Below are positions 22,205-31,050 of a DNA stretch of 64,000 nucleotides, one piece after another. Source of the stretch: Sandaracinus amylolyticus (GTDB lineage: Bacteria; Myxococcota_A; Polyangia; Polyangiales; Sandaracinaceae); the NCBI RefSeq assembly GCF_021631985.1, contig NZ_CP070225.1:124001-188000 (forward strand), written 5' to 3'. Under the pieces are notes generated by a model that worked only from the letters and a program-made list of their open reading frames with translations, did no database searches and was not told the DNA's origin. Both the position numbers and the translations under genes were made by a program. The first letter of the stretch is position 1; each line of letters opens with the position of its first letter.

Positions 22205-23443
22205 TCACTCCGCGACGCTCACGCGCCACAGGCCCGCGGGCTCGAGCGGGCCCGCGCCGGGGTCGTCGCACAAGCCGAGCGTCGTGACGTAGAGCAGGTC
22301 GTCGCCGCCCTGCACCCACTGCGAGATGTACGGGCGGTGGCCGTCGAAACGATCCTCCACCGCGCGGCCGTCGCTGCCGCGCTGCACCGAGCGCACCCAG
22401 CCCGCGCACATGTCGCCGTAGATCATGCGTCCCGTGAGGCGCCCGCCGTACTGATCGGCGTTGCGCGGCTGGTACTCGACGCCGACGTACGCGTTGCGCT
22501 TCGTCGTGTTCTCGGTCTCCTCGTCCTCGAGCACGTAGCGGTGATCGTCGGTGTGCGACCACGAGACGATCGGCTGCACGAAGTCGTCGCAGTCGAGCTC
22601 GCGGCAGAGGCCCTCGTGCACCGGCCAGCCGAGGTTCTGCCCCGGGCCGGTCACCACGTTGACCTCCTCCCACGTGTTCTCGCCGACGTCGGCGACCCAG
22701 AGGTTCCCGCTCGCGTCGAGCGCGCCGCGGAACGGCGAGCGCACGCCCCACGTCCAGACGTTCGGGCTCTCGTCGCCGCCGCCCGACGCGAACGGGTTGA
22801 GCGGCGAGGGCGTCGAGCCGCCGCTCGCGGGATCGCGGCTCGGCACGATGCGCAGGATCTTGCCGAGGTCGTTCGTCACGTCCTGCGCGTTCGCGCTGCG
22901 GAGCTGCTCGCCGAAGAGCGCCCACATCGAGCCGTCGTCGAAGAAGCCGATCGAGCCGACCTGGTGCCAGGCGCGCGTCGCCATCGGCTCGTCGACGAAG
23001 TAGATACGCTGCGCGCTCGCGACCACGCTCTCGTAGTCGGGGGGCGCGAACGTGTAGCGCACGATCTCGCTGCCGGTGACCGTCGTGCACTGACCGAGGT
23101 AGAGGAAGTGGTTCGTCTCCCACTCGGGATCGAACGCGGTCGAGAGCAGCGAGCAGCCGTCTTCGAGCGTGATCGTGAACGAGCCGAGCTCCGTGACCGT
23201 GTCCCCCTCGATGCGCACGTGGCGCACCGTGCCGAGGATCTCGAGGAGGATCATCTCGTCCTCGGTGCCCGGCACCGCGGCCGCACCGACGAGCGGCAGC
23301 GTGCCCTCGGGCAGCTGGAGGCGAGTGAACTCCATCCACGGTTCGACGGGGCCCGCGGGGGCGTCGTCGTCACCGCCGCACGCGGTGAGCGCGAGCGCGA
23401 GAGAGAGCGTGAGAAGCGATCGATTCCGCACTGCCAACCTCAC
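22205..23443 (-). CDS. PQQ-type glucose/sorbosone dehydrogenase lipoprotein
   Basis: Predicted periplasmic or surface lipoprotein of the soluble aldose sugar dehydrogenase (GSDH) beta-propeller family, which oxidises sugars using PQQ. The signal peptide ends in lipobox LTAC. Propeller landmarks are LGKILRI, GVRSPFRGALD, GNLWVADVGENTWEEVN and GQNLGWP, the conserved run of this family. The GTG at 23443 overlaps the upstream stop (GTGA); a TTG at 23461 is an alternative. Last gene of a three-gene operon ending in a strong terminator. The cytochrome-like lipoprotein encoded first in the operon is a plausible electron acceptor. Confidence 0.88.
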   Translation of the reverse strand: MRLAVRNRSLLTLSLALALTACGGDDDAPAGPVEPWMEFTRLQLPEGTLPLVGAAAVPGTEDEMILLEILGTVRHVRIEGDTVTELGSFTITLEDGCSLLSTAFDPEWETNHFLYLGQCTTVTGSEIVRYTFAPPDYESVVASAQRIYFVDEPMATRAWHQVGSIGFFDDGSMWALFGEQLRSANAQDVTNDLGKILRIVPSRDPASGGSTPSPLNPFASGGGDESPNVWTWGVRSPFRGALDASGNLWVADVGENTWEEVNVVTGPGQNLGWPVHEGLCRELDCDDFVQPIVSWSHTDDHRYVLEDEETENTTKRNAYVGVEYQPRNADQYGGRLTGRMIYGDMCAGWVRSVQRGSDGRAVEDRFDGHRPYISQWVQGGDDLLYVTTLGLCDDPGAGPLEPAGLWRVSVAE

Positions 23444-25467: not shown

Positions 25468-27312
25468 TCAGAGCGTCTCGAGCGCGCGCAGCAGCGCGTC
25501 GCCGCGGGCGCGATCGATCATCTGCACGTACGCGATCTTCCCGCGCAGCCACGCCTCGAAGTCGGGCTTGCTCTCGCGGTTCTGCGCGGCGAGGCCGGTC
25601 TTCTTCGCGTTGTGGAGGATCGCGCGCAGCATGCGCACGTCCTCGCGCGGCACGCCGAGCTTGTGCGTCTCGTTCACCACGATGCCGGTGACGGTCTGGC
25701 GGCCACCCGCGCGCTGCACGCGGCCCTTCTTCACCTGGATCCGGAAGCCTTCTTCTTCGACGACGTGGCGGACCCGCGCGATCAAGCGCGCGATCTCGCC
25801 GCGCTTTCCTTCGGGCGCGCTGAACGTGAGGTCGTCGGCGTAGCGCGTGTACGTCCAGCCGCGCGCGACTGCGAGACCGCGCAGCCGTTGATCGAGCTTG
25901 CGCGCGATCTGGTTCGAGATCGCGGGGCTCGTGCACGCGCCCTGCGGCAATGCGCGCGGGCCGGTCGCGACGTCGTACTTCGCGCCGTCGTACTCCGCGC
26001 GCGTGCGCGCGCTCTCGGTGCAGAGCAGCGCGAGGATCGTCGCGACCGCGGGCGAGTACCCGACGCCGGTGAAGAGCCCGCGCACCCGCGGGAACGTGAT
26101 CGACGGGAAGAAGCTCTCGAGATCGAGATTGATCACGACGTCGCGCCCGACGTGCTCGCGCGCGTTCGTCACCGTCGATCGACCGGGCACGAAGCCGTGC
26201 GCGGGGCGCTCCACCGGGAGCTTCTCGAGCACGTGCTCGAGCACCCACTGCTGCGCAGCGGCGAGGCGCGGCATCGGTGCGCTCAGTCGACGTGTGCCGC
26301 CCGAGCGCTTCGGCACGTCGAACTGCACGTAGTGCGAGCGGCGCGCGGCCTCGGCGTGGAAGCACAAGAAGCGCAGCGTCGGGATGGTGACGCCGAGCGC
26401 CTTCGCGACGTCGGCCGGGCTCGCCATCACCGGCAGACCGAGCGCATTCAGCTTCTCGACGTGCGCGCGGCGATCCCCGAGCAGCGCCGAGACGCCGCGC
26501 CCGAGGTAGACGATGTCCTCGCGCTTGCGGCGCGCGATGCGCTCGGCGCGTGCCTGCTTCCGTGCCTCGCTCGCGGCGCGCTTCTCTTCCTTCGTGCGCG
26601 CGCGATCGGCGCGCAGCTGCGCGACCGCTTCGTCCGCGTTCTTCGCGGCGATCGACGACGCGAGCCGGTGCGCGTCCTTGTGCTTCAGCCACTCGTCGCC
26701 GATGCGATGGATCTCGACGAGCTGTGCGCGCGTGAGCAATCCCCGCAGCTCGAGCCCGCGATCGATCAGCGCGGTGCGCTCGTCGCTCTCGGGCGGGATC
26801 ACGTCGGTGCGCCCGATCCACGCGGTGCGCCACGGCACGATCTTCAGCGCGCGCGTGCGCAGCTCCGCGGGCGTGAGCGTGAGCAGCGACCCGACGTCGT
26901 AGGGATCGAGCGTCGGGGCGCTCGGCGTGCTCGCCTTGAGCGCGGGCTGCGCGACGAGCACGGGCTGCGCGACGAGAGGCGCGCTCGCGCTCCGGTGATA
27001 GACCCAGTTCTGTCCGCTGGGCGTGCTCGTCAGCGTGCGCGTGTAGCCGTGCGGAGCGAAGAGGCCTCGCGCGAAGAACGCATCGACGAACGCGATGCCG
27101 TCGGTGACCGTCTTCACGGTGCGCCCGGGCGTGCCGCGCGTCGCGTCGTCGACGACGTCGATGGGCGTGAAGCTCTCGCCCTTGGCCATGCGCGCCTTGA
27201 TCGCGCTCCAGACCGCGGCCTCGAGCGGTGAGCCGGTCGTGCCCACCTCGCTCGTCACGATCGGCGTCGGGCCTCCGGTGAAGAAGTCGACGACCTTCTT
27301 CCAGAAGCTCAT
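25468..27312 (-). CDS. Retron reverse transcriptase with long N-terminal extension
   Basis: Reverse transcriptase that copies part of its own upstream noncoding RNA into msDNA. The catalytic region (about 325-600) contains the retron-specific NAxxH motif (NAREH, 383-387), the first catalytic Asp in LDLESFFP (397), LPQGACTSP (455-463), the active-site YADD (491-494) and the retron VTG motif (541-543). The C-terminus resembles the RNA-recognising thumb. Residues 1-280 are an unusual extension: a wing-like region ~25-105, then a charged helical Arg/Lys/Ala segment ~225-268. Total 614 aa is longer than typical retron RTs (~320-490). The ATG at 27312 lies only 3 nt after the a2 repeat of the ncRNA, as expected for a retron. 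Follows the HEAT and SWIM genes on the same strand. Confidence 0.96.
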   Translation of the reverse strand: MSFWKKVVDFFTGGPTPIVTSEVGTTGSPLEAAVWSAIKARMAKGESFTPIDVVDDATRGTPGRTVKTVTDGIAFVDAFFARGLFAPHGYTRTLTSTPSGQNWVYHRSASAPLVAQPVLVAQPALKASTPSAPTLDPYDVGSLLTLTPAELRTRALKIVPWRTAWIGRTDVIPPESDERTALIDRGLELRGLLTRAQLVEIHRIGDEWLKHKDAHRLASSIAAKNADEAVAQLRADRARTKEEKRAASEARKQARAERIARRKREDIVYLGRGVSALLGDRRAHVEKLNALGLPVMASPADVAKALGVTIPTLRFLCFHAEAARRSHYVQFDVPKRSGGTRRLSAPMPRLAAAQQWVLEHVLEKLPVERPAHGFVPGRSTVTNAREHVGRDVVINLDLESFFPSITFPRVRGLFTGVGYSPAVATILALLCTESARTRAEYDGAKYDVATGPRALPQGACTSPAISNQIARKLDQRLRGLAVARGWTYTRYADDLTFSAPEGKRGEIARLIARVRHVVEEEGFRIQVKKGRVQRAGGRQTVTGIVVNETHKLGVPREDVRMLRAILHNAKKTGLAAQNRESKPDFEAWLRGKIAYVQMIDRARGDALLRALETL

Positions 27313-27315
27313 TCG

Positions 27316-27341
27316 TCACCGGCCCTGCGAGGAGCCCCGCG
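27316..27341 (-). repeat. Retron a2 inverted repeat
   Basis: 3' arm of the a1/a2 duplex that closes the msr-msd RNA; matches the complement of a1 at 24 of 26 positions. The RT start codon begins 3 nt beyond it. Confidence 0.9.
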
Positions 27342-27379
27342 TGCTCGACTTCGTGCGTTGGACCACGTCCGATCACGAA

Positions 27380-27452
27380 GGCACCGCGGGGGCCTGTGTT
27401 TCGACGGACTCATCGAGTCGCTTCGGTGTCGAACACAGGCCCCTGCGGTGCC
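27380..27452 (-). other. msd inner hairpin
   Basis: A ~25-bp near-perfect stem (arms 27380-27405 and 27428-27452, one mismatch and one bulged base) with a nested perfect 5-bp apical hairpin at 27407-27419. This is the expected shape of the DNA stem in msDNA. Confidence 0.9.
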
Positions 27453-27553
27453 CAAAAGAACATCGGGCGTGGGGTTGCATGAGGAAGCAGTGTCCACCAC
27501 GGCGTAACGCCGCGGTCTCCGCGCTGCCGAAGCAGACGGAGTGGGCTCGTGCG

Positions 27554-27579
27554 CGCGGAGCTCCTCGCAGGGTCGGTGA
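27554..27579 (-). repeat. Retron a1 inverted repeat
   Basis: 5' arm of the a1/a2 duplex. Priming from the branched G requires this pairing in characterised retrons. It is followed after about 7 nt by the AGC candidate branch site. Confidence 0.9.
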
Positions 27580-27600: not shown

Positions 27601-27625
27601 GGGTGAATCATCATCGCATTCACCC
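27601..27625 (-). other. Hairpin spanning the SWIM-protein stop codon
   Basis: Perfect 8-bp stem (GGGTGAAT/ATTCACCC) with a 9-nt loop. The TGA stop of the SWIM gene lies in the 5' arm. It sits ~22 nt before the retron a1 repeat and could be a processing site or partial terminator separating mRNA from the ncRNA. Confidence 0.55.
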
Positions 27626-29311
27626 GAAAAAGGAACCGCCGATCGAGCCGGCGGCGAGACGGACATCGGCGCTGCCGATCACCGTCAGGCGCAGCGCGAG
27701 CAAGTGACGGCACGCGCCGTTGCGCAGACCGAAGCGACGGTGGTGCGTGCAGGTGCAGCGCGCGCGTGAGAACACGCCGTCGCGATCGAGGATCGTCTCC
27801 GGGGACTCGCCCGAGATGCGCGCGACGAGGAGGCGCTTGCCGCCGGGGAGCGCTTCTTCGCGCTCCATCTTCACGCGGTGCTCGACGAAGAGCTTGCGCG
27901 CCGCGGTGAGCTCCTCGGGCTCGGGGCCGATCACCTTCTCGGCCTCGCGCGCCTCGACCACGTCGCGGAAGCGATAGGCGCCCGCCGCGAAGTCGTAGAC
28001 CGCCTGGCCCTGCTTGCTCAAACGATGCAGCGCGGCGGCGACGCTCTTCTGCGCGTCGCCGGTCTCGCTCGCGAGCGACGCCGGAGTGCCGGTGCGGCGC
28101 ACGCGCAACGTCGAGCCCACACGCTCGAGGGTCGCGGCGTCGGCGGTGAACGTGCCCGTGATCAGATCGAGGTTCGTGCCGCCCGACCAATCGCTTTCGG
28201 TCCAGCCACTCAGCGCGAGCACGAAGCGCATGCCCGGCATCGTCACGATCCAGATGCTCGGGAGGCCGTTGCCCAGCAGGTGCACGTCGACGCGCTCGGC
28301 GATCGGCAGGAGGCGCGCGAGCGCAAAGAGGCGACGGCGCCCCCACACCTTGATCGTCTCGTCCTTCTCGCCCTCGTACGCCGCGCCGCGATCCTCGATC
28401 GCGACGTTCCACGGCTCGAGCACGAGGCGCGCGGGCTTGCCGCGCACGAGCTCGAAGCGGATCGCGCGGGGCCCTTCCTTCTCGCGATGACGCTTCAGGT
28501 GCGCGAGCACCGAGTACACGCTCGCGACGTCGAGCGACACCCGCCGCATCGGAAGGCCCGTCGCCGCGGAGATCTGACCGAACCCGCGCAGCCACGAGGG
28601 CGGCAGATCGATCTTCTCCTCGCGATAGTCGGCGCGCCCTTCGACGCGCACCTCGAAGCCTTCGGGGTCGACCTTCAATCGGGTGGCGCGATAGGTGCGC
28701 AGGCCCTGGAAGTGATCGAAGAGCGGAAGTGAGTAATCGACGTTGGTCGTGCCGGGCGCGGCCTGGTGCGCGCCGTCGAGCTGCTCGCGATCGAGGTAGA
28801 GCGCGCCGTAGCTCGACTCGTCCTTCGAGAAGCACTCGAAGAACACCACGTCGTCGGCGACGGTGACGATCGGATCGCAGGGCACGAGCGAGCGGAAGAG
28901 CTGCGGATCGTTCTTCGCGAGCTCGTTCGCCCACTTCACGCGCGCATCCCAGTAGATGCGGTGCATCGTGCGGAACTGGCTCTCGAGGTCCTTCGAGGGC
29001 GGGCTGCTCGCGATCTCGGCCGCGAGGCGCACCTGCTCCTTCGCGCGCACGTCGCGGCGCACCCGCTCTTCTTCCTCGAGCTGCGCCTTCTTCCACGCTT
29101 CGTAGGCGCTCTTGTCGCGCTTCTTGAATTTCAGATCGCCGATCACGACCGCGTGCAGCGCCGAGATCGCCTCGCGGAATCGCAGCGGGTCGCGCAGCTC
29201 TCCGTCGAGCCACACCCGCTCGCGCGCGAGGTTCGGCGAGAAGCGCAGCGTGGAGCGATAGGGCCCCTGATCGACCCCGCTCTTGCCGAGATATCGCAGC
29301 TCGTAATTCAC
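27620..29311 (-). CDS. Winged-helix and SWIM zinc-finger retron accessory protein
   Basis: A 563-residue protein with a C-terminal SWIM zinc finger of the form CxC...CxH (C519, C521, C534, H536), a module that binds DNA or proteins. Before it lies a winged-helix-like segment (about 408-452; SVAAALHRLSKQGQAVYD ... YRFR). The large N-terminal region (1-400) is mixed alpha/beta with a charged coiled-coil-prone stretch near 75-115 and no recognised catalytic motif. GTG at 29311 overlaps the stop of the HEAT-protein gene by four bases (GTGA). Encoded immediately upstream of the msr-msd RNA and RT, it is very probably part of the tripartite retron; toxin versus regulator role is not known from sequence. 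Confidence 0.85.
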   Translation of the reverse strand: MNYELRYLGKSGVDQGPYRSTLRFSPNLARERVWLDGELRDPLRFREAISALHAVVIGDLKFKKRDKSAYEAWKKAQLEEEERVRRDVRAKEQVRLAAEIASSPPSKDLESQFRTMHRIYWDARVKWANELAKNDPQLFRSLVPCDPIVTVADDVVFFECFSKDESSYGALYLDREQLDGAHQAAPGTTNVDYSLPLFDHFQGLRTYRATRLKVDPEGFEVRVEGRADYREEKIDLPPSWLRGFGQISAATGLPMRRVSLDVASVYSVLAHLKRHREKEGPRAIRFELVRGKPARLVLEPWNVAIEDRGAAYEGEKDETIKVWGRRRLFALARLLPIAERVDVHLLGNGLPSIWIVTMPGMRFVLALSGWTESDWSGGTNLDLITGTFTADAATLERVGSTLRVRRTGTPASLASETGDAQKSVAAALHRLSKQGQAVYDFAAGAYRFRDVVEAREAEKVIGPEPEELTAARKLFVEHRVKMEREEALPGGKRLLVARISGESPETILDRDGVFSRARCTCTHHRRFGLRNGACRHLLALRLTVIGSADVRLAAGSIGGSFFG

Positions 29312-31050
29312 TCGATCACCAGCGAGGGCACGTGCACGCGCACCGCGTCGCGCACCGTCGGTGATGCGATGGCCGAGCGCACCAGCGCCACGATCGCGCC
29401 GCGTCGCTCCGTCTCGCGCACGCTGCGCAGCGTGATCGCGAGCAGCGGCAGGAGCGCATCGGCCTCGTGCTCGCCCTGCGCGATGCGCGCGGCAATTTGG
29501 CGCAGCGCAGCCCGCTTCGCGCGGCTCCCGCGGTGCACCGCGAGGAGCGTCGTCGCCCACACGTGGCGCAGGCTCTGCGGCGCGAGGGCGCTCGATCGCG
29601 CTTCGAGGTGCGTGATCAGTCGCTCGCGCGCGTCGGGATGGGGCGTCTCGGCGAGCGCGGCCCAGAGCTCGGGCTCGTCGCGGAAGCGCACAGTGCCCGC
29701 GAGCACGTCGAGCGCGCGGGCGCGCACGTCGTCGAAGCGGCTGTCGAGCAGATCGCGCAGGTGCCGCGTCTCGCCGATCCCGATCACGAGCGGCATCAGC
29801 CACTCCAGTGCTTCGCCGCGCACGGTGCCGACCGGGGCCTGCACGATCGGCAGCGCGGTCTCGAGCGCGGCCGCGTCCTTCACGCCCTTGTCCTTCGCCC
29901 ACGCGAGCCCGAGCTCCGCGATCGGCGCGGCGCTCGCACACGCCCATCGGGCGCAGGTCGCGAGATCGACGCGCGAGGGGCTCACGTGGGCGCGCATCGA
30001 GGTCGCGAGCGTCGCGGTGAGCGCGGGATGATCAATCGCGAGCAGCGCGTCCCACTCGCTCATCGAGAGCGACTCGATGCCGCGGGCATTCGCGAAGAGC
30101 CGCGACGCGAGCTCGATCACGTCGGCGTGCGGGCACGCGAGGAGCGGGCGGAGCGTCGTGATCGAGAGCGACTCGAGCTCGCTCTTCATCTCCTGCTCGA
30201 GGAACGCCGCGACCTGCCGGCGCACGTACAGCGAGCGGGCGCGCACCAGGAGCGAGAGCAGCGCGTCGAGATCGCGCCACGCCTCGGGGTGCAGCGGGGA
30301 AGGGCGCAGATCCTTGAGGCTGCGCCCGTGCACGATCGTCGTGCGCCGCGGCGACAGCGCGATCGCGTCCGAGCCGTGATGCAGCAGCTGCATGAGGCTC
30401 CAGCTCGCGACGAGGTCCTCGGGCTTGCCGACGTGCGCGTCGTCGTAGCGCGCGAGCGCATCGAAGACCCACCGGCGGAACGCCGCGGGATCGCGGCGGC
30501 CCATCACGCGGAAGAAGCGCAGCGCGCGACGGCGCAGGTGCGCGCGGGTGTGGCTCGAGAAGATCGGCGCGCGCACCGGGTCGGCGCCCGGCGTCTTCGT
30601 GCGCGTCAGGATCGCGACCTCGCGCGTCGTGCTGGTCTGCCAGTCCCATCGCCGCGCGCGCTTCAGCGAGTAGCGGAAGAGCCGATCGAACGCGACGAGG
30701 AACGCCGCGATCACCTCGGCATCACCCGCCGCCTCCGCCGATTTGAAGACGTGCTTCACGAGCGGTCGCTGGCCCGGCGCCCCGCCCGCGGTCTCGTCGA
30801 TCCAGCGCAGCAGCATGTGCCGCGCCCACGGCCGCGTGTCGCGCGCCCACTTCTCGCCGAGCGCGCCGAGCCGTGTCGCGGCGAACGGGCCTCGCCGCTT
30901 GGGCAGCTCCCACGTGTGCTTGCCCTGGCCCTGCTTCGTCGTCTCGGCAGGCTGCCGGAACGCGACGATCTCGGCGAGGAAGCGTGGGTCCTCCTGCGCG
31001 AAGAGCTCTTCGAGCAGGAGCATCGAGCCTGGCTTCGTCGTGACCGCCAT
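29308..31050 (-). CDS. HEAT/ARM-repeat retron accessory protein
   Basis: A 580-residue all-helical protein. From about residue 240 onward it shows repeated ~35-40-residue helical hairpins of HEAT/ARM type (RSLYVRRQVAAFLEQEMKSE; ACPHADVIELASRLFANA; DDVRARALDVLAGTVRF; ALRQIAARIAQGEHEAD). The N-terminal ~200 residues are Arg-rich and may contact nucleic acid. No enzyme motif was found. First gene of the retron operon, translationally coupled to the SWIM protein. The two presumably form a complex whose activity is held or triggered by the RT-msDNA particle, by analogy with other tripartite retrons. ATG at 31050 is taken; 31023 is a possible internal alternative. Confidence 0.83.
   Translation of the reverse strand: MAVTTKPGSMLLLEELFAQEDPRFLAEIVAFRQPAETTKQGQGKHTWELPKRRGPFAATRLGALGEKWARDTRPWARHMLLRWIDETAGGAPGQRPLVKHVFKSAEAAGDAEVIAAFLVAFDRLFRYSLKRARRWDWQTSTTREVAILTRTKTPGADPVRAPIFSSHTRAHLRRRALRFFRVMGRRDPAAFRRWVFDALARYDDAHVGKPEDLVASWSLMQLLHHGSDAIALSPRRTTIVHGRSLKDLRPSPLHPEAWRDLDALLSLLVRARSLYVRRQVAAFLEQEMKSELESLSITTLRPLLACPHADVIELASRLFANARGIESLSMSEWDALLAIDHPALTATLATSMRAHVSPSRVDLATCARWACASAAPIAELGLAWAKDKGVKDAAALETALPIVQAPVGTVRGEALEWLMPLVIGIGETRHLRDLLDSRFDDVRARALDVLAGTVRFRDEPELWAALAETPHPDARERLITHLEARSSALAPQSLRHVWATTLLAVHRGSRAKRAALRQIAARIAQGEHEADALLPLLAITLRSVRETERRGAIVALVRSAIASPTVRDAVRVHVPSLVIE

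Follow-up and report, generated by a model that had tools for sequence, protein, structure and literature searches.

Two retrons of Myxococcus xanthus, Retron-Mxa1 (Mx162) and Retron-Mxa2 (Mx65), have been described from the myxobacteria, and variants of the branch site have been reported for both, CAGC for Mx162 and GAGC for Mx65 (PMC6868368). The retron presented here, which lies within a 64,000-nucleotide stretch of Sandaracinus DNA (the window), resembles these two when compared by description, in that it is myxobacterial and has a reverse transcriptase (RT) with an extended N-terminus, and by description it also shares the GAGC branch site with Mx65 (PMC6868368). Its predicted msDNA of 138 nt, however, differs from their msDNAs of 65 or 162 nt. 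By its proteins it groups with the type XIII retrons, whose partner proteins are SWIM and HEAT/ARM (or WGR) and for which PADLOC-DB has the models RT_XIII, SWIM_XIII and HEAT-ARM_XIII; all three proteins of the operon match these models at E ≤ 9e-136. In a literature search we found no paper describing or testing the mechanism of type XIII. Retrons in general seem to be without integrative retrohoming, according to a 2022 review (PMC8867640).

The type XIII operon

Judged by gene content and order, the locus is a complete type XIII retron operon with four parts, HEAT/ARM, SWIM, ncRNA and RT, all on the minus strand of the window. The first gene (29308–31050) encodes a HEAT/ARM-repeat protein (HEAT-ARM_XIII, E = 9e-136, 452 bits) and its stop overlaps by 4 nt the GTG start of the second (27620–29311), which encodes a SWIM zinc-finger protein (SWIM_XIII, 2e-170, 565.6 bits). 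The ncRNA begins about 40 nt past the SWIM stop and is followed by the gene for a retron RT of 614 amino acids with an N-terminal extension (25468–27312). This RT falls in the XIII clade (RT_XIII, 4e-156, 518.6 bits, the runner-up among the PADLOC models being RT_other with 347 bits), matches Pfam RVT_1 and has the Ec86 RT as its closest solved relative. Lying directly beside the ncRNA, it carries the retron-type motifs YADD at residues 491–494 and VTG at 541–543, both of which are invariant in our alignment. A Pfam search of the accessory proteins returned no SWIM domain and HEAT matches below threshold only, and the names SWIM and HEAT/ARM therefore rest on the PADLOC models.

The predicted structure of the SWIM protein was too poor for use (pLDDT 50). 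In the RT model (pLDDT 71) a small domain at residues 29–107 (window 26992–27228) is confidently predicted, with three helices and two strands in the winged-helix order HHH-EE. It has no Pfam match, recurs in some relatives and is missing from others (L004, L007 and L013). Our guess is that this predicted winged-helix-like domain might contact the DNA hairpin or a partner protein.

In 34 of the 36 loci examined, a SWIM relative lies ahead of the RT, and the tight HEAT/ARM–SWIM–RT order is repeated in L004, L006 and L007. The same genome holds a second type XIII retron (L002, G000:C1:3039540–3043664) with a SWIM gene upstream and, like Mx162, a CAGC branch site (PMC6868368), as well as a third retron-type RT (L003) that matches RT_other.

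Related RTs came from a genome collection and from a survey of the phylum that covered 379 genomes. Their distribution bears on the role of the operon, which could be a genuine retron with a housekeeping function in myxobacteria and no part in phage defence. Such a role would accord with the reports that myxobacterial retrons are widespread and vertically inherited (PMC6868368) and with the presence of RT relatives in many genomes of the phylum. We nevertheless regard it as unlikely, if worth keeping in mind, given that the distribution is patchy (64 of the 379 genomes at the threshold used) and that PADLOC places all three proteins among defence systems. The retron itself is a well-formed and ordinary addition to the known type XIII.

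Fold and covariation of the retron RNA

A preliminary description of this DNA had drawn five stems by hand within 27316–27579, and an independent RNA fold of the minus strand, transcribed from 27579 to 27316, yields the same architecture. The minimum free energy is −165.6 kcal/mol compared with −110.3 ± 5.0 kcal/mol in dinucleotide shuffles, none of 200 of which matched the native energy (z = −11.0). The arms a1 (27547–27579) and a2 (27316–27348) form a stem of 30 bp across 33 positions (27579–27547 with 27348–27316), made up of helices of 6 bp (27579–27574/27321–27316) and 19 bp (27572–27554/27341–27323) and of two inner helices (27552–27551/27344–27343 and 27549–27547/27348–27346). The 26-nt a1/a2 pairing drawn earlier (27554–27579/27316–27341) is present, but it stopped short of the true stem. 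The stem closes with three pairs, CGA against UCG, that do not vary among 16 loci and directly abut G27546, the predicted branching guanosine, such that the duplex ends at an unpaired guanosine within an NAGC-like site, here GAGC.

Two msr hairpins follow, within the range of one to three that defines a retron msr. Hairpin 1 (27517–27541, 10 bp) has a TTCG loop, and the hand-drawn version of it (27524–27535) had named its tip only. Hairpin 2 (27496–27516, 9 bp) has exactly the coordinates given before and is likely the RT recognition element. Beyond these lies the long covarying msd hairpin (27363–27472) with an outer stem (27472–27462/27373–27363), a long stem (27453–27428/27405–27379) and an apical hairpin of 5 bp (27419–27407), so that both segments of the msd stem and its apical hairpin were recovered by the independent fold. 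The view that the stem mismatches are mostly wobble-compatible did not hold, since in RNA the single mismatches (A27444·C27388, C27467·A27368, A27573·C27322, C27553·A27342 and A27550·A27345) are A·C or A·A and never G·U. The two within the msd, both A·C in RNA, would become G·T wobbles in the cDNA. Strand-specific selection on the msd, scored as A·C against G·U, was not significant (13:24 in the msd versus 11:49 in a1/a2 and msr; Fisher p = 0.09).

The RT start was placed at ATG 27312, 4 nt past a2, because an in-frame stop precedes it and an M-x-FW start is common to most homologues. With the start codon at this distance, the a1/a2 duplex would contain the RT ribosome site. In the congener G178 (L008:1338–1502) a2 and the RT are separated by an element of 153 nt that has terminal inverted repeats of 18 bp, and related copies of this element occur in both Sandaracinus genomes.

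The preliminary description had proposed an alignment of homologous loci as a check for compensatory changes. We aligned 16 loci, including the window, with an ncRNA at the equivalent place and the same branch site, which is GAGC or GAGT in all of them and stands immediately past the a1/a2 duplex, as had been suggested for G27546. The arms have diverged strongly (43–46% ungapped identity) and we therefore used an alignment-free swap test, in which the a1 of each of ten non-redundant loci was paired with every a2, and the two sides of the msd stem likewise. The loci's own a1/a2 duplexes gave −57.7 kcal/mol versus −26.6 kcal/mol when swapped, and their own msd stems −56.1 versus −28.0 kcal/mol; for either stem the own partner was best in 10 of 10 loci, and 0 of 100,000 permutations equalled the native pairing. 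In the alignment of the 16 loci, 92.8% of cells are paired, 37 of 56 pairs show double-sided changes that keep the pairing, and all five covariation measures exceeded 500 of 500 shuffles and all slid controls. Covariation is thus strong in both the a1/a2 and the msd stems.

On this alignment, the conserved core of the ncRNA consists of the outer msd stem and of hairpin 2, whose helix (helix 4) has 97% of its cells paired. The TTCG hairpin has no counterpart in 14 of the 16 loci, where a gap of 21 nt takes its place; it is present in the window strain and its congener only (L008), and from the alignment it is a 21-nt insert of the genus Sandaracinus. A covariance model built from the aligned loci (R1) scores 207 bits in the window, detects the ncRNA of L011, which was not among the building loci (E = 3e-43), and also detects those of the more distant type XIII loci L020, L022, L024, L032 and L033. 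Separately, we observed three loci (L082, L083 and L087) in which inverted repeats flank a conserved msr-like hairpin and a branch-like TAGC site; by sequence, these are probably ncRNAs of another retron kind of the same order.

The fold at 27316–27579 is a real msr-msd retron RNA. The identity proposed for it in advance is borne out by the covariation, by the conserved branch site, by flanking genes that match the type XIII models, and by the edges of a plasmid-borne copy, which fit the model.

An orphan msd copy on plasmid pSa001

A search of the whole genome with R1 gave one unexpected match, on pSa001, a plasmid of the window strain itself, the soil bacterium Sandaracinus sp. MSr10575 (NZ_MW053453.1, 209,732 bp). 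The matching segment (pSa001 22474–22610; L039:8475–8611) corresponds to window 27350–27487 with an identity of 137/138, one T having been lost from a run of four, and it comes without msr, a1/a2 or RT sequence. Both of its edges are exact, the adjoining base differing on each side. The right edge is A27350. Since the a2 duplex begins with T27348 and G27349 stands opposite the branching G, copying is expected to begin at this base. In Ec86, cDNA synthesis likewise begins opposite the base that lies 5′ of the G facing the branch point, which is the position that A27350 occupies here. The left edge, C27487, is separated by 8 nt from the conserved msr hairpin 2, and an RT would be expected to stop there. 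Taken from these edges, the predicted msDNA template comprises 138 nt (27350–27487, minus strand).

The plasmid copy is 99% identical to the msd of its own strain versus 96% to that of the congener G178, and the copying event is therefore recent on that scale. It breaks the final codons of a gene remnant, and two paralogues that have no insert (in G178 at 3.49 Mb and in the own genome at 0.78 Mb) align to both flanks, with their tails ending alike. The 51-nt flank aligns less well than the long flank and needs small gaps. The empty site is known from these paralogues only, and no ortholog of the plasmid site was found. Target-site duplications mark many transposed elements; none was seen at the junctions here, nor is one expected for end-joining of free DNA.

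With the reverse-transcribed part alone present, beginning at the predicted first templated base, and with the site empty in the paralogues, the most fitting interpretation of the plasmid copy is that an msDNA of about 138 nt left a fossil in the genome. We consider it quite probable that a full-length reverse transcript made by the retron itself, free of a1/a2, branch-site and RT sequence, became inserted in a resident plasmid at a non-homologous site. The segment could instead be left over from a complete retron locus, or be a duplication at the DNA level carried by a neighbour; an IS110 element does end about 50 nt from it, and with a single copy the mechanism is not replicable within the genome. 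We judge this explanation rather improbable. The segment carries nothing else of the retron, one of its edges coincides with the base predicted to be copied first, and the opposite edge lies shortly before the msr hairpin. Furthermore, both flanks derive from a single gene family, in which the remaining members run across the junction without an insert, and the four other near-identical IS110 copies in the genome (L102–L105) have no msd alongside. Read as an msDNA fossil, the copy, though a single event, suggests from its sequence that the retron has been active, and would mark the start and the stop of its DNA product.

We found no further orphan copies of the window msd in its own genome and none for the third RT (L003). 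Among public plasmids the orphan pattern occurred in the strain's own plasmid only, and in viral contigs the exact pattern was not found. In 18 genomes with close retron relatives, extra R1 matches were considered as orphan msd copies; six of them were compared with the msd of the respective genome and proved to be noise, or else the msr of a different retron kind with a TAGC site. Some 4 kb ahead of the window, a 43-nt stretch (G000:C1:120076–120118; L124:1501–1543) adjoining a gene that resembles msrA has a 93% match to one arm and the loop of the L002 msd, and may, from this similarity, be an older partial msDNA copy of L002.

Proposed mechanism and comparison with known retrons

Taken together, we consider it very likely that the RNA of 27316–27579 is the msr-msd of a type XIII retron that makes an msDNA of about 138 nt, with an RT–msDNA complex that probably restrains the partner proteins, and that one msDNA became integrated in pSa001. 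The RT would prime from the 2′-OH of G27546, copy A27350 first, run through the msd and stop at C27487, 8 nt before hairpin 2. The RNA template would be removed by RNase H and the predicted msDNA of about 138 nt, 5'-TTCGTGCGTTGG...GCATGAGGAAG-3', would remain attached to the msr RNA at G27546. The RT–msDNA complex would then probably keep the HEAT/ARM and SWIM proteins inactive, and phage infection would release them, in the manner in which other retrons control their effectors. Transcription, the 2′–5′ link, the identity of the effector and phage defence are inferred here by analogy. One msDNA molecule would have been turned into duplex and integrated in pSa001, the copy recording both ends. 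The notion that an ordinary intergenic hairpin or a terminator, and no retron RNA, accounts for the inverted repeats has next to no probability, for although the segment is GC-rich and strongly self-complementary and matches no Rfam family at gathering score, its conserved branch site, its covariation and its fixed position ahead of a retron RT in 17 loci speak against it, and the comparison of loci, through covariation and RT linkage, already refutes it.

The fold in the window broadens a known class, bringing clean covariation and a covariance model, which is useful because the Rfam scan of the whole window gave no family at gathering score for the ncRNA and no account of the type XIII mechanism was found. 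The plasmid copy matters more than the fold. It offers sequence evidence for msDNA production in the natural host, predicts both msDNA ends to the base and bears on the capacity of retrons to return information to the genome. We suggest that orphan msd copies may be a route to the msDNA termini of other retrons without sequencing of msDNA. If our reading is true, retrons occasionally behave as retroelements, leaving end-resolved msDNA fossils in genomes.

Compared with the type XIII retrons of related myxobacteria, the window operon has the same gene order. It differs from L004, L007 and L013 in the extra winged-helix-like N-terminal domain of its RT, and from its type XIII relatives in the additional msr hairpin. 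A precedent for the msDNA fossil reading is offered by Nannocystis exedens, at least as its sequences are summarised in a review: retrotransposition was proposed as the origin of its msDNA-like repeats and of a partial copy of msDNA (Lampson and Rice 1997; Lampson et al. 2002, via PMC6868368), and several duplicated msr and msd repeats are noted for Nannocystis Ne160 (PMC6868368). As far as that summary goes, both cases concern myxobacterial sequence that derives from msDNA and lies away from any RT, whereas pSa001 differs in having a single, full-length and msd-only copy, located on a plasmid, with both edges resolved and with paralogues of the empty site. The plasmid copy is a rare case in that both of its edges are resolved.
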